Origin: Candidatus Gastranaerophilales bacterium
GTDB lineage: Bacteria > Cyanobacteriota > Vampirovibrionia > Gastranaerophilales > Gastranaerophilaceae
Direction of reading: 5' to 3'
Assembly (NCBI GenBank): GCA_947594025.1
Contig: CANQDZ010000001.1
Coordinates: 124,001-188,000, forward strand
DNA length: 64,000 bases
The notes below the pieces were generated by a model. That model was not told where the DNA came from. It did no database searches and worked only from the letters and a program-made list of their open reading frames with translations. Numbering within the stretch: the first letter of the stretch is position 1; every line of letters begins with the position of its first letter. The translations under genes were made by a program, and so were the position numbers. Below, piece after piece: positions 43,656-49,609 of the stretch.

Positions 43656-44712
43656 ACGTATTGCAATTATAGGAGGAGGTCCTTCAGGCGTTTATTGTGC
43701 CTTGCAGATTAAAAAAAATAACAAGGATATTGATGTTACAATCTTTGAAAAAAATAAAGCTTTAAAAACTCTCCTTGCAACCGGAGGAGGAAGATGCAAT
43801 TTATCATACGCGGAATATGATGTTAAAGAATTAGCAAAAAATTATCCCCGAGGAGAAAAATTCCTCTACTCAATTTTTTATAATCATTCCGTTTCAGATA
43901 CTCTTGAATACCTAAAAAGCATAGGCATTGAAACGTACATTCAACAAGATAAAAGAATTTTCCCAAAATCAAACAGCGCACGGGATATGAGAGAAAAACT
44001 TTTAGGAGAGCTTGAAAGAAACAACGTTAAAATTATAAAGGAAGAAATACTTTCACTGAAAAATCTTTCGAATTTTGATAAAATAGTAGCCGCTATCGGG
44101 GGTCATTCAGGTTATGAGCTTGCAAAACAAATGGGACATACTATAACAACACCTGCCCCTTCCTTACATGGCTACATAACAAAAGAAAAATATCCTTCAG
44201 GCATTACCTTGAATATAAACGGTGATAACCTTTTATTCACGCATGAAGGAATTTCAGGTCCTTATGTGTACAAACATTCTTCTTTAAATGCTTATTCAAA
44301 ATATCCAAGATTTTTAGAAATTTCTCTTTTAGATACCGAAAAATTGAAAGAAAAATTAAAAACTCACTCTCAAAAAAGTTTTGGCAACACGGTTTCAGAT
44401 TTTATACCCCGAAACCTTGCAAAAGTATTGGTTAAAAATTTTGATAAGCAGGGAGCCCACGTTACAAAAGAAGAAATTGAAAACCTTAAAACATTATCTT
44501 TCAATATAATTTCTGCGGACAACAAAGGAGAAATTGTAACTGCCGGCGGGGTTAATTTAAAAGAAATTGACAAAAACTGCAAATCAAAACTGAACAAAAA
44601 CGTTTATTTTATAGGCGAGGTTTTAGATATAGACGGCTTTACTGGCGGTTTTAATCTTCAAAATTGCTGGTCTTGCGGATATGCGGCAGCAAAAGATATA
44701 TGCGGAAATTAA
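43648..44712 (+). CDS. HI0933/YhiN-family FAD oxidoreductase
   Basis: Flavoprotein of the family also called aminoacetone-oxidase-like or BaiN-like; substrate unknown. FAD motif IAIIGGGPSGVYCALQI at the N-terminus, ATGGGRCNLS, YIQQDKRIFPKSNSARDM, FTHEGISGPYVYK and the closing GEVLDIDGFTGGFNLQNCWSCGYAA (as GEVLDIDGFTGG and NLQNCWSCG). About 354 residues from GTG 43648, which GGAG precedes by 9 bases; an ATG at 43639 is a possible alternative. Converges on pflA with a 4-base overlap. Confidence 0.85.
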   Translation: MTKRIAIIGGGPSGVYCALQIKKNNKDIDVTIFEKNKALKTLLATGGGRCNLSYAEYDVKELAKNYPRGEKFLYSIFYNHSVSDTLEYLKSIGIETYIQQDKRIFPKSNSARDMREKLLGELERNNVKIIKEEILSLKNLSNFDKIVAAIGGHSGYELAKQMGHTITTPAPSLHGYITKEKYPSGITLNINGDNLLFTHEGISGPYVYKHSSLNAYSKYPRFLEISLLDTEKLKEKLKTHSQKSFGNTVSDFIPRNLAKVLVKNFDKQGAHVTKEEIENLKTLSFNIISADNKGEIVTAGGVNLKEIDKNCKSKLNKNVYFIGEVLDIDGFTGGFNLQNCWSCGYAAAKDICGN

Positions 44713-45440
44713 GCTTTCATATTGGATAAAATGATGTTTCTTGCTTCGATTGTTTCTTCTTTGCTCGGAGTTTTGGTATCTTTTATTTTATATTCGATTT
44801 GAAGTTCTTTATATTTTGGAATTGCCATATCATGATAAGGAATAACATCAAGTGCTTTTATATTTTTAAGTGTTGAAAGAAACTTGCCCAAACGCATAAG
44901 GTCATTTTTATCGTCGGTTAAATTTGGAACAACAACATACCTTATCCAAACGGGAATGCTGTTTTCAGATAAATATCGTGCAAAATCCAGTATATTTTGA
45001 TTTGAATGACCCGTAAGTTTTTTGTGTTTATCCGGGTCAATCTCTTTTATATCAAGCAAAACAAGAGAGGTATATTTTATAAGTTCATCAAATTTTCGGG
45101 TATTATTTTTATCAAAATAAATTCCCGATGTATCTAAGGCTGTGTGAATTCCCTTTGAACGTGCTTTTTTGAAAAGTTCAATAACAAAATCAGCTTGATG
45201 TAAGGGTTCGCCTCCCGTCACGGTTATTCCTCCCTTTGTAAATTCTTTTACTCCGTCATATTTTAAAAGAATTTCGTCAGGTGTCATTTTTTTATTTTCA
45301 TGCATATTCCAAGTATCTGGATTATGGCAATATAAACATCTCATGGGACAGCCTTGAGTAAAAACAACAAACCTGACCCCCGGTCCGTCCACCGTACCCA
45401 TGGTTTCTATTGAGTGAATATTTCCGTACACTTGCGGCAT
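44709..45440 (-). CDS. pflA: Pyruvate formate-lyase activating enzyme
   Basis: Radical SAM enzyme that abstracts hydrogen from the PFL glycine to make the glycyl radical. 243 residues. Cluster motif CPMRCLYCHNPDTW (CxxxCxxC), preceded by DGPGVRFVVFTQG; then GGITVTGGEPLHQ and VLLDIKEIDPDKHKKLTG. Full length. Lies 3 bases after the glycyl-radical gene in the order pflB, glycyl-radical gene, pflA, so the activase is made together with both halves of its substrate. Confidence 0.95.
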   Translation of the reverse strand: MPQVYGNIHSIETMGTVDGPGVRFVVFTQGCPMRCLYCHNPDTWNMHENKKMTPDEILLKYDGVKEFTKGGITVTGGEPLHQADFVIELFKKARSKGIHTALDTSGIYFDKNNTRKFDELIKYTSLVLLDIKEIDPDKHKKLTGHSNQNILDFARYLSENSIPVWIRYVVVPNLTDDKNDLMRLGKFLSTLKNIKALDVIPYHDMAIPKYKELQIEYKIKDTKTPSKEETIEARNIILSNMKA

Positions 45441-45443
45441 AAA

Positions 45444-45686
45444 TTAACCGTTTAATGAAGAATGGAATGTTCTTGAAATAACGTCATCCTGCTGTTCTTT
45501 TGTCAATTTGATGAAATTTACCGCATATCCTGAAACCCTGACCGTCAGTTGAGGATATTTTTCAGGATGAGCCTGCGCATCAAGCAAAGTTGCCTTGTTA
45601 AACACATTCACATTCAAGTGATGACCGCCTTTTTCGACGTATCCGTCTATTAAGCTTATTAAATTTTCTTCTTGTTGAACAGTCAT
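45444..45686 (-). CDS. Separate glycyl-radical domain of pyruvate formate-lyase
   Basis: 80 residues equal to the C-terminal end of [40 protein letters not shown], then VSGYAVNF with radical Gly53, and a [15 protein letters not shown] end. It also resembles E. coli GrcA (YfiD), but here it replaces the end that the neighbouring PFL lacks. ATG directly follows the stop of the catalytic gene (TAAATG, same frame), with AGGAGG 8 bases upstream inside that gene's last codons. The radical would sit on this small protein and act in the catalytic partner. Confidence 0.9.
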
Positions 45687-47780
45687 TTATATTTCCTCCT
45701 CTTGGCAAACACCTTGGCTGCAGCCAAAATCAAGCTGAATATCTAAATCACCAAAAAATACTTCATCTTTGCCTAAAGCATTGGGCACGATTGAAAATGT
45801 ATTTGAAATTCCGTCTTGTGCGTCTTTAAACGGTATTTTAGAAACGGAAGAAAGAGATGCGACGGCACCGTTTGAATCACGGCCATGCATAGGGTTTGCA
45901 CCTGGAGCCAAAGGCACGCCCATTTTTCTGCCGTCAGGTGTGTTGCCTGTTTTTTTGCCGTACACAACGTTTGATGTGATTGTTAAAATTGACATTGTAG
46001 GAATTGAATTCCGATATGTGTAATGTTTTCTTATCATGTTCATGAATTTCGAAACAATCTCTACCGCAATTGAATCAACTCTGTCATCATTGTTGCCGTA
46101 TTTTGGGTATTCGCCCTCAATTTCGTAATCTACGACAATTCCTGATTCATCTCTTATGGTTTTTACTTTTGCATATTTTATTGCGGATAAAGAATCCGCA
46201 ACAACTGAAAGACCTGCAATACCTGTTGCAAAATAGCGTTTTACATCTCTGTCTAAAAGCGCCATTTGTGATCTTTCATAGCAATATTTATCGTGCATGT
46301 AATGAATTACGTTTAAAGTATTTACATACAAGCCGGCAAGCCATTCCATCATATTTTCGTATTTTTCCATAACTTCATCATAATCAAGATATGTTGAAGT
46401 TATGGCTCTAAATTCAGGAGCAACCTGCTCTTTCAATCTTTCGTCAATACCGCCGTTTATTGCATACAATAAACATTTAGCTAAGTTTGCACGGGCGCCG
46501 AAGAATTGCATTTCTTTGCCCATAACCATTGAAGAAACACAACATGCAATGGCGTAATCATCACCATGGATTGGTCTCATTAAATCGTCGTTTTCATATT
46601 GAACCGATGATGTTTCAATGGAAATATGCGCCGCATATCTTTTAAAAGCGTATGGAAGCCTTGTTGACCATAAAATAGTCAAGTTTGGTTCAGGTGCGGT
46701 ACCTAAATTTTCAAGAGTATGAAGGTATCTGAATGAATTTTTTGTGACCAAATGACGTCCGTCAACCCCGATACCCGCAATTGATTCGGTTACCCAAGTA
46801 GGGTCGCCTGAAAACAAGGAATTGTATTCAGGTGTTCTTGCAAATCTGACAAGCCTTAGCTTCATGACAAAATGGTCAATCATCTCTTGAGCTTGTTCTT
46901 CCGTTATAATACCTTCTTTTAAGTCCCTTTCAATATATATATCGAGGAAAGTTGAGGTTCTGCCGATTGACATGGCAGCACCGTTTTGCTCTTTAACCGC
47001 TGAAAGATATCCAAAATACAGCCATTGAATGGCTTCTCTTGCGTTTCGTGCAGGCTTTCTGATATCAAAACCGTACATATCGCCCAGCTCTGCCATTTCG
47101 CCCAGGGCTCTTATCTGCTCCATTAATTCTTCTTTTAGTTGGATTTTTTCAGGGCTCATTGTGCCGTCTATTGAAGCATGCTGTTGAACTTTATCTTCAA
47201 TAAGCCTGTCTATACCGTAAAGAGCAACTCTCCGATAATCACCAATTATACGGCCTCTGCCGTATGCATCGGGCAAGCCGGTCAAAATTGCCGCATGGCG
47301 TGCTTTTTTCATTTCGGGCGTGTAGCAGTCAAAAACGCCTTGGTTGTGTGTTTTTCTGTATTTTGTAAAAATTTCTGCAACTTTTTTATCAATTTCGTAG
47401 CCGTAAGACTTGCATGCGGTTTCCGCCATTCTAATTCCGCCAAATGGCTGCATAGAACGTTTTAGAGGTTTATCCGTTTGAAGACCTACAATTACTTCAA
47501 GTTCTTTATCAATATATCCCGGGGCATGAGATGTGATTGTTGAAACAACTTCTGTATCCATATCAAGAACCCCGCCGTTTTCACGTTCTTTTTTAAATAA
47601 ATCACAGCATTCTTCCCACAATTTCTTGGTTGCGGGGGTTGGTCCTTTTAAGAAATTTGCATCACCGTCATAGGGGGTATAATTTTGCTGTATAAAATCA
47701 CGTACGTCAATAACATGCTCCCATTTTCCGGAAACAAATTTTGATGTAGCATATTTTTCTTGTTCTACCGCGATTTCCAC
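45687..47780 (-). CDS. pflB: Pyruvate formate-lyase catalytic chain lacking the glycyl-radical end
   Basis: Non-oxidative cleavage of pyruvate with CoA to acetyl-CoA and formate. 697 residues; starts near [18 protein letters not shown], catalytic Cys413-Cys414 in [12 protein letters not shown], then [12 protein letters not shown] and [20 protein letters not shown]. After [11 protein letters not shown], where full PFLs continue into the radical domain, it has a different tail, [20 protein letters not shown] then EEEI, and stops. The distinct tail argues against a simple nonsense mutation. GTG start; AGGAGG is 14 bases upstream, unusually far. Confidence 0.92.
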
Positions 47781-47815
47781 GTTTTTAAACCCATCCTCCT
47801 TCCAAAGTAGAAAAT

Positions 47816-47844
47816 ATTATATCACGATGTTTCATGATGTTTAA
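47816..47844 (-). promoter_or_regulatory. Promoter and candidate operator of the pfl operon
   Basis: Minus strand: extended -10 TGATATAAT with TATAAT at 47816-47821 and a weak -35 TTAAAC 17 bases upstream (47839-47844). The 17-base spacer is occupied by the dyad ATCATGA-AACA-TCGTGAT (47821-47838), 7-4-7 with one mismatch. A repressor bound there would block RNA polymerase. The regulator is unknown. From here to the trp promoter (47845-48009) I see only AT-rich sequence with no supportable gene. Confidence 0.5.
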
Positions 47845-48009
47845 GTAAAATGTTACATTTTATGCAATTTAATAATTTTAAATTTTAAAATCGGGCTAAT
47901 TATAATCCCAGTCTTGAAAATAAGAAAATTAAAATAATTAAAAAACAAAAAATATTCTTAATATATTTTAAACTTTTTAAAATTTCTTATAATTAGCGTG
48001 CAAATTTAT

Positions 48010-48038
48010 TTGACAAAAATAAAAAATTACACTAAACT
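48010..48038 (+). promoter_or_regulatory. Promoter of the trp leader-trpB2 unit
   Basis: TTGACA, 17 bases, TAAACT. The predicted start of transcription is at about 48045, next to the leader-peptide ATG. A second TATAAT at 47988-47993 lacks a good -35. Confidence 0.65.
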
Positions 48039-48046
48039 TTACTCAT

Positions 48047-48097
48047 ATGAAAAGTGTAAATACTGCAAACGTTAATATTTGGTGGTCTTGGCAATAG
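48047..48097 (+). CDS. Trp-rich leader peptide of the trpB2 attenuator
   Basis: A 16-residue ORF, MKSVNTANVNIWWSWQ, with three Trp codons among its last five (TGG TGG TCT TGG CAA TAG). No ribosome site is visible, but the -10 lies 8 bases before the ATG, so translation could begin near the 5' end. The Trp codons and stop overlap the first arm of helix 1:2 of the attenuator, exactly where ribosome stalling controls a trp leader. By role it corresponds to trpL. Confidence 0.85.
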   Translation: MKSVNTANVNIWWSWQ

Positions 48098-48169
48098 TTT
48101 GCCGAGCTTATTTGCGTATTTATACATAATTTTAAGTTTGGCGAATGATTTTTAATTATTCGCATTTTT
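48087..48169 (+). promoter_or_regulatory. Transcription attenuator controlling trpB2
   Basis: Three mutually exclusive helices. 1:2, CTTGGCAA (48087-48094) with TTGCCGAG (48099-48106). 2:3 antiterminator, TTTGCCGAGCTTA (48098-48110) with TAAGTTTGGCGAA (48133-48145), 13 pairs including three G-T. 3:4 terminator, GCGAATGATT (48141-48150) with AATTATTCGC (48154-48163), 10 pairs, then a T-run. When Trp-tRNA is scarce a ribosome stalled at the Trp codons would cover arm 1 and free arm 2 to pair with 3, allowing read-through into trpB2; when Trp is plentiful the terminator forms. Confidence 0.88.
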
Positions 48170-48197
48170 GTGTTTATATAAAAGAATGGAGGATAAT

Positions 48198-49565
48198 ATG
48201 AACGACAAAATACCTTACAAAATTTATTTATCAGAAGATGAGATGCCAAAAAATTGGTACAATGTGCGTGCGGATATGAAAGAAAAACCCGCACCGTTAT
48301 TAAACCCCGCGACAAAAGAACCAATGACGCGGGAGGAATTATCTCAAGTTTTTTGTGAAGAATTGGTTAATCAGGAACTTGATAATGACACAAGATATAT
48401 AGAAATTCCAAAAGAAATTCGTGATTTCTATAATATGTACAGACCCTCACCCTTGGTTAGAGCCTATTTTCTTGAAAAAGAACTTCAAACACCTGCTAAA
48501 ATCTACTATAAGTTTGAGGGAAACAATACATCCGGTTCTCATAAACTAAATTCCGCAATTGCTCAAGCTTACTATGCTAAAAAACAAGGGCTTAAAGGCG
48601 TCACAACGGAAACAGGTGCAGGTCAATGGGGAACGGCACTTTCAATGGCAACGGGATATTTCGGACTTGATTGCAAAGTCTTTATGGTTAAGTGTTCATA
48701 CGAGCAGAAACCTTTCAGGCGTGAAGTCATGAGAACTTATGGTGCAGAGGTTATCCCTTCACCTTCAATGGAAACGAATATTGGAAGACAAATAAACAAA
48801 GAGCTTCCAAATTCAACAGGTTCTCTCGGCTGTGCAATTTCAGAAGCCGTTGAAGCTGCAGTTACAAATGAAGGCTACAGATACGTTTTAGGTTCTGTTT
48901 TAAATCAGGTGCTTTTACATCAATCAATAATAGGACAGGAAACAAAAATTGCACTTGATAAATACGGAATAAAACCCGATATGATAATAGGCTGTGCGGG
49001 CGGAGGTTCAAACCTTGGCGGGCTCATTGCACCATTTATGGGCGAAAAATTAAGAGGCGAAAACGATTATGAAATCATAGCCGTCGAACCTGCTTCCTGT
49101 CCAAGTCTTACGCGCGGAAAATATGTGTATGATTTTTGCGACACGGGATGCATCTGCCCGCTTGCAAAAATGTATACTTTAGGTTCAAAATTTATGCCTT
49201 CCGCAAACCACGCAGGCGGTTTAAGATACCACGGAATGAGCACAATTTTATCAGAGCTTTATGATAAAGGCTTAATAAAGGCGGTAAGTGTTGAACAAAC
49301 AAAAGTATTTGAAGCCGCAAAATTATTTGCGAGAGTTGAAGGCATACTTCCCGCACCTGAAAGCAGTCATGCCATAAGGACCACAATTGATGAGGCTTTA
49401 AAATGCAAAGAAAATAACGAAGAAAAAACAATTGTGTTTGGACTTACGGGCACGGGATATTTTGACTTGGTTGCATATCAAAAATTTAACGACGGCGAAA
49501 TGTCAGATTATATCCCGACAGATGAAGACATCCAAAAAACTCTTGCAATGTGCCCAAAAGTATAA
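48198..49565 (+). CDS. trpB2: Tryptophan synthase beta chain, TrpB2 type
   Basis: PLP enzyme joining indole and serine to tryptophan. 455 residues from ATG 48198 (GGAGG 5 bases before). It shows the extra N-terminal region of TrpB2, then PSPLVRAYFLEKEL, PLP-lysine context GNNTSGSHKLNSA, ETGAGQWGTALSMA, and the phosphate loop CAGGGSNLGG. No trpA is present, as usual for TrpB2 genes; it may salvage free indole, plentiful in the gut. Single gene between the attenuator and a strong terminator. Confidence 0.95.
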   Translation: MNDKIPYKIYLSEDEMPKNWYNVRADMKEKPAPLLNPATKEPMTREELSQVFCEELVNQELDNDTRYIEIPKEIRDFYNMYRPSPLVRAYFLEKELQTPAKIYYKFEGNNTSGSHKLNSAIAQAYYAKKQGLKGVTTETGAGQWGTALSMATGYFGLDCKVFMVKCSYEQKPFRREVMRTYGAEVIPSPSMETNIGRQINKELPNSTGSLGCAISEAVEAAVTNEGYRYVLGSVLNQVLLHQSIIGQETKIALDKYGIKPDMIIGCAGGGSNLGGLIAPFMGEKLRGENDYEIIAVEPASCPSLTRGKYVYDFCDTGCICPLAKMYTLGSKFMPSANHAGGLRYHGMSTILSELYDKGLIKAVSVEQTKVFEAAKLFARVEGILPAPESSHAIRTTIDEALKCKENNEEKTIVFGLTGTGYFDLVAYQKFNDGEMSDYIPTDEDIQKTLAMCPKV

Positions 49566-49572
49566 AATAAAT

Positions 49573-49606
49573 AAAGCGCCGTATCAAAGGGATACGGCGC
49601 TTTTTT
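49573..49606 (+). terminator. Rho-independent terminator after trpB2
   Basis: AAAGCGCCGTATC pairs with GATACGGCGCTTT (up to 13 bp) around a 5-base loop, then a T6 run. On the minus strand the A-rich left side gives a T-run as well, so it may also end the leftward glycan operon. Confidence 0.92.
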
Positions 49607-49609
49607 ATC

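Follow-up and report, generated by a model that had tools for sequence, protein, structure and literature searches.

The sequence analysed here, referred to throughout as the window, is a 64,000-nucleotide stretch of the genome of a Candidatus Gastranaerophilales bacterium. Our interest lies in a single trpB2 gene and the short leader region in front of it, whose features, all on the forward strand, are as follows.

48010..48038, +: sigma-70-type promoter, TTGACA-17-TAAACT (read directly from the sequence)
48047..48097, +: trp leader peptide ORF, MKSVNTANVNIWWSWQ and stop, apparently leaderless (direct reading, genome small-ORF scan)
48054..48125, +: long-range stem, 48054-63 and 48065-68 with 48112-125, enclosing helix 1:2 (centroid fold)
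48080..48091, +: control codons Trp12, Trp13, Ser14 and Trp15 (direct reading, footprint folding)
48087..48106, +: helix 1:2, the protector hairpin, 8 bp, 48087-94/48099-106 (folding)
48097..48146, +: helix 2:3, the antiterminator, 13 bp, 48098-110/48133-145, plus a terminal G-U, 48097/48146 (folding)
48141..48175, +: helix 3:4, the intrinsic terminator, 48141-50/48154-63, with U-run (folding)
48188..48192, +: Shine-Dalgarno sequence GGAGG of trpB2 (direct reading)
48198..49565, +: trpB2 (TIGR01415 / PRK12391), orphan, Clostridia-type (profile scores, homology)
49575..49607, +: GC-rich terminator after trpB2, GCGCCGTATC..GATACGGCGC and T6 (direct reading)

Divergent from trpB2, genes for pyruvate formate-lyase and its activase occupy 44709-47780 on the reverse strand of the window; pflB is present in three of the 15 genomes searched, the present genome included.

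A promoter, a 16-codon ORF ending in Trp-Trp-Ser-Trp and three competing helices had been described here in a sequence-only reading of the window, and all of these were recovered exactly where it had placed them. The promoter, a strong one, has its -35 box, TTGACA, at 48010-48015 and, after a 17-nt spacer, its -10 box, TAAACT, at 48033-48038. The leader ORF, verified base for base, runs from an ATG at 48047 to a TAG at 48097, its Trp codons starting at 48080, 48083 and 48089; it has no Shine-Dalgarno sequence and lies in AT-rich DNA (26% GC). Since the -10 box ends 8 nt before the ATG, the 5' UTR of the leader should be about 2 nt at most, and this spacing lends support to the earlier suggestion that the ATG is read leaderlessly. 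Judging by the consensus promoter alone, translation apparently begins at a 5'-terminal AUG, as in trpL of Sinorhizobium meliloti, whose leader mRNA has the start codon of its ORF at the very 5' end (PMC7298713).

The three helices overlap in the order 1:2, 2:3 and 3:4, the last of them having 10 bp and a UUU loop followed by ATTTTTGTGTTT. The leader region folds very stably (MFE z = -3.47, with none of 200 dinucleotide shuffles equally stable), antiterminator and terminator are mutually exclusive, and in the ribosome-free leader the centroid fold sets the long-range stem around helix 1:2. An ordered three-helix set sought by the same criteria was found in none of 3000 full dinucleotide shuffles, nor in 3000 further shuffles in which the U-tail was kept (0/6000 in all). 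The Trp cluster is similarly rare. In a small-ORF scan that took in, in stretches, 1.505 of the 1.512 Mb of the genome, only four of 39,655 small ORFs had at least three Trp within five codons, and the trpB2 leader ORF is the only one of these four with a terminator behind it. A search of the genome for a second amino-acid attenuator found none; it returned seven loose matches including the trpB2 leader, and the others that were checked do not precede amino-acid genes. The attenuation mechanism is therefore without a second example in this cell, which counts against it. Outside the window, a small ORF rich in Phe lies, together with a strong terminator, ahead of a pyrimidine operon (pyrD/pyrE-like; G000:C1:34138-34420) and is probably part of a pyrimidine leader rather than an amino-acid attenuator, and rimP-nusA is preceded by a structured leader with a terminator (G000:C44:4487-4640).

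The identity of the gene itself is clear from profile scores, with 595.8 bits against TIGR01415 (cut-off 518.85) and 688.3 bits against PRK12391 (cut-off 366), whereas the TrpB1 model gives this protein 156 bits, under its cut-off of 392. Because trpB2 ends in a strong terminator of its own, its transcript is monocistronic, in line with the single target gene proposed earlier. The genome has no trpA, trpE was not detected in it, and searches of it with proteins of family members as queries gave no matches for trpE, trpD, trpC, trpF or trpA. For want of trpA and of detectable trpE, D, C and F, TrpB2 is predicted to work only on indole from outside, so the salvage of indole to Trp that had been suggested fits the gene content as a predicted activity. 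There are precedents for such a role, since the TrpB2 of Thermococcus kodakarensis participates in indole salvage (Hiyama 2014, as cited in PMC11085991) and Bifidobacterium of the gut use TrpB to turn indole from outside the cell into Trp (PMC11085991). Several genomes of the family carry a trpB1 without an adjacent trpA (G002, and others such as those at L004, L010 and L022), which suggests that, in a family so depleted of trp genes, a TrpB devoted to salvage is a common feature.

Ribosome position and the fold of the leader

Ribosome-mediated attenuation by Trp is a textbook mechanism, and the leading edge of a ribosome usually lies some 15 nt beyond the first base in the P site. Placed on this leader with Trp12 or Trp13 in the A site, a ribosome has its edge at 48092 or 48095 and leaves segment 2 (48098-48110) free; at the stop codon its edge is at 48107 and segment 2 is covered. 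We folded the RNA lying outside the assumed ribosome footprint, an approach that is thermodynamic and not kinetic. For a stall at Trp12 or Trp13 this footprint-restricted folding gave P(2:3)=1.0 and P(3:4)=0.14-0.28; with the ribosome moved on to the stop codon, helix 2:3 was lost (P(2:3)=0) and the terminator formed (P(3:4)=0.95). The leader without a ribosome gave P(3:4)=1.0 with helix 1:2 enclosed by the long stem. With a stall at Trp15 the terminator could still form, so the tandem Trp12-Trp13 would be the effective sensor and Trp15 would add little.

In the mechanism that we propose, RNA polymerase would initiate some 2 nt upstream of the leader ATG, giving a transcript with a 5'-terminal AUG on which a ribosome would load. 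When Trp-tRNA is low, this ribosome would stall at Trp12 or Trp13 with its edge near 48092-48095, leaving segment 2 free to form helix 2:3, which would block the terminator and allow trpB2 to be made. When Trp is sufficient, the ribosome would reach the UAG and, with its edge near 48107, cover segment 2, such that helix 3:4 could form and transcription would end at the U-run. If the leader is not translated, helix 1:2 and the long-range stem would leave 3:4 intact, and the default state should therefore be off. Once made, TrpB2 would produce Trp from scavenged indole and serine (or phosphoserine) in a cell that has no trp pathway.

If the small ORF were fortuitous, the terminator might instead answer to some other sensor, for instance to TRAP, to an RNA that senses indole or to an element for translation reinitiation, and the missing Shine-Dalgarno sequence would be in keeping with this. 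We regard such a sensor as highly improbable, given that the Trp codons and helices stand exactly where the stall geometry requires them and that the joint chance of a Trp cluster and these helices is very low. No Rfam family matches the leader, its RNA does not have the many spaced GAG/UAG triplets required by TRAP, and the gap of 100 nt between leader and trpB2 is too long for reinitiation. Ribosome-mediated Trp attenuation before trpB2, the central claim of the sequence-only reading, is upheld by anatomy, footprint geometry and gene content, and we consider it very probable that a classical attenuator of this kind adjusts the expression of one laterally acquired gene, trpB2, to the amount of charged tRNA-Trp available.

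Acquisition of trpB2 and tryptophan sensors in other lineages

TrpB2 was found in only one of 383 genomes of the family (288 in an earlier sample), namely the present one, and its nearest proteins come from Clostridia, at 79-83% identity. These two observations together indicate that trpB2 was laterally acquired. Melainabacteria, to which this lineage plausibly belongs, have already been described as gaining metabolic genes horizontally from Firmicutes (PMC3787301). We claim no specific donor, because the placement of TrpB2 in the tree was unstable between two runs. Contamination was considered and rejected, as the neighbouring pflB is 83-85% identical to that of genomes of the same family and the contig spans 193 kb in a genome that is 99% complete and 0.65% contaminated. 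A phylum-wide sample of 292 genomes contained four others with TrpB2, and none of the four genes has a Trp leader in front of it. Nor was one seen before trpB1 or trpE of the same family in the loci searched, and a homologous attenuator was found in no close relative, there being no other sampled family genome with trpB2.

In Clostridia the same gene is controlled differently. RF00230, the T-box, matches eight of the nine nearest Clostridia trpB2 loci, and the Trp specifier, GAA-UGG-purine, stands at the expected place in 21 of 30 Clostridia loci with a T-box motif, so trpB2 is independently under Trp-specific control there. When we surveyed for ATG-started leader ORFs with clustered Trp codons, using the reverse strand as control, Clostridia gave one in 76 loci and the control likewise one in 76. 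Upstream of the window trpB2, neither a T-box nor any other Rfam RNA was found at E<=1 in 47700-48400. The two kinds of element serve the same gene and would answer the same signal, the availability of uncharged tRNA-Trp, but the T-box senses the tRNA directly without a leader peptide, whereas the window element has one.

One way to account for this difference is that a T-box-regulated trpB2 arrived from Clostridia and that the attenuator was then evolved or captured independently, to which we would give an even chance. The sequences closest by identity are those of Clostridia with T-boxes, the window has no T-box, and there are documented cases, at other genes, of a T-box and a leader peptide replacing one another in front of one and the same gene (PMC2965389). 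Set against this are the unstable placement of TrpB2 in the tree and the lack of a source element, either in the genome or before the trp genes of the family.

Trp leaders were also found outside Clostridia. The same survey detected one before 22 of 47 orphan trpB2 genes in Bacteroidales (0/47 in the reverse-strand control) and before 8 of 41 in Fibrobacter (control 3/41). Trp-rich leader ORFs in Bacteroidales vary in sequence (loci L154-L190). In seven of the eight leaders from Fibrobacter, helix 2:3 overlaps helix 3:4, the leader MKFVASINFWWWQAQ ends in a Trp run, and in four lined-up loci a -10 box, TATATT, lies 6-7 nt before the leader ATG. Pairs tallied from hand-picked arms in five distinct Fibrobacter attenuator sequences showed segment 3 to be invariant, with segments 1 and 2 varying mostly by pair-keeping changes, including G-C to A-U in helix 1:2. 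The trpB2 genes of both groups look orphan too, with no trpA-like gene directly downstream in the inspected loci. Leaders from both groups resemble that of the window in target gene, Trp run and terminator, and those of Fibrobacter further in being leaderless, with an ATG that follows the promoter almost directly, as it does in the window; their leader and helix sequences, however, are unlike those of the window outside the Trp codons. With Trp leaders in Bacteroidales and Fibrobacter and the T-box in Clostridia, the type of sensor before trpB2 differs by lineage.

The Fibrobacter loci raise a second account of origin, in which attenuator and trpB2 came together in one transfer from a Fibrobacter-like donor with a Trp leader and the attenuator did not arise in this lineage. 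The shared layout of the Fibrobacter orphan trpB2, where TATATT stands 6-7 nt ahead of a leaderless ATG and the leader ends in a Trp run, speaks for this, and a tree that unites the window TrpB2 with that of Fibrobacter group 1 in one clade is not rejected (p-AU 0.236). We hold it only tentatively, however, and lean towards doubting it: a larger tree places the window TrpB2 with Clostridia sequences and away from Fibrobacter group 1, the attenuator DNA of the two cannot be aligned by eye outside the Trp codons, and the leader region of the window is AT-rich.

Relation to known attenuators

Like the window element, trpL of E. coli, in the Enterobacteria, combines a leader peptide carrying tandem Trp codons with segments 1-4, a pause hairpin, an antiterminator and an intrinsic terminator. 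The window differs from it in controlling one orphan trpB2 instead of trpEDCBA, in being apparently leaderless and in being very AT-rich. The alphaproteobacterial trpL of S. meliloti also has a different target, trpE(G). A candidate classical attenuator was predicted in 2005, among those of Corynebacterium trp operons, for trpB2A of C. diphtheriae (PMC1262725). As in the window, the gene behind it is named trpB2, but there it is co-operonic with trpA, whereas the window trpB2 stands alone. For cyanobacteria, a paper of 2016 states that there is 'no reliable data' on attenuation (PMC4833913).

As far as the open-access literature shows, a Trp attenuator in this phylum is new, as is an orphan salvage trpB2 as attenuator target. 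The earlier reading, which knew of no prior example, therefore stands as regards the phylum; the arrangement is not unique, given the Trp leaders in front of orphan trpB2 genes of Bacteroidales and Fibrobacter. That recurrence is itself new by the same measure, although an earlier description in Bacteroidota is possible. We are inclined, with moderate confidence, towards a wider view in which an orphan, indole-salvaging trpB2 is widely exchanged among animal-gut bacteria under whichever Trp-tRNA sensor suits the host lineage, a T-box in Clostridia and a leader-peptide attenuator in Bacteroidales, Fibrobacter and the present genome. The cyanobacterial phylum would then have its first ribosome-mediated attenuator in the window.

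Ribosome-mediated amino-acid attenuation would thereby be extended to a new lineage, and to a salvage gene instead of a biosynthetic operon. As a single transferable gene found behind a T-box in one phylum and behind leader-peptide attenuators in others, trpB2 also amounts to a small natural experiment in how sensors are exchanged. A further prediction is that some Trp-auxotrophic gut bacteria make the salvage enzyme when Trp-tRNA runs short and live on the indole of their neighbours. As a separate observation, the trpB1 of one Fibrobacter genome (G452), with a trpA-like ORF behind it, has a Trp-run leader ORF, MKSAIRFNRWWWGSRT, at about 1205-1252 of locus L150 on the trpB strand.
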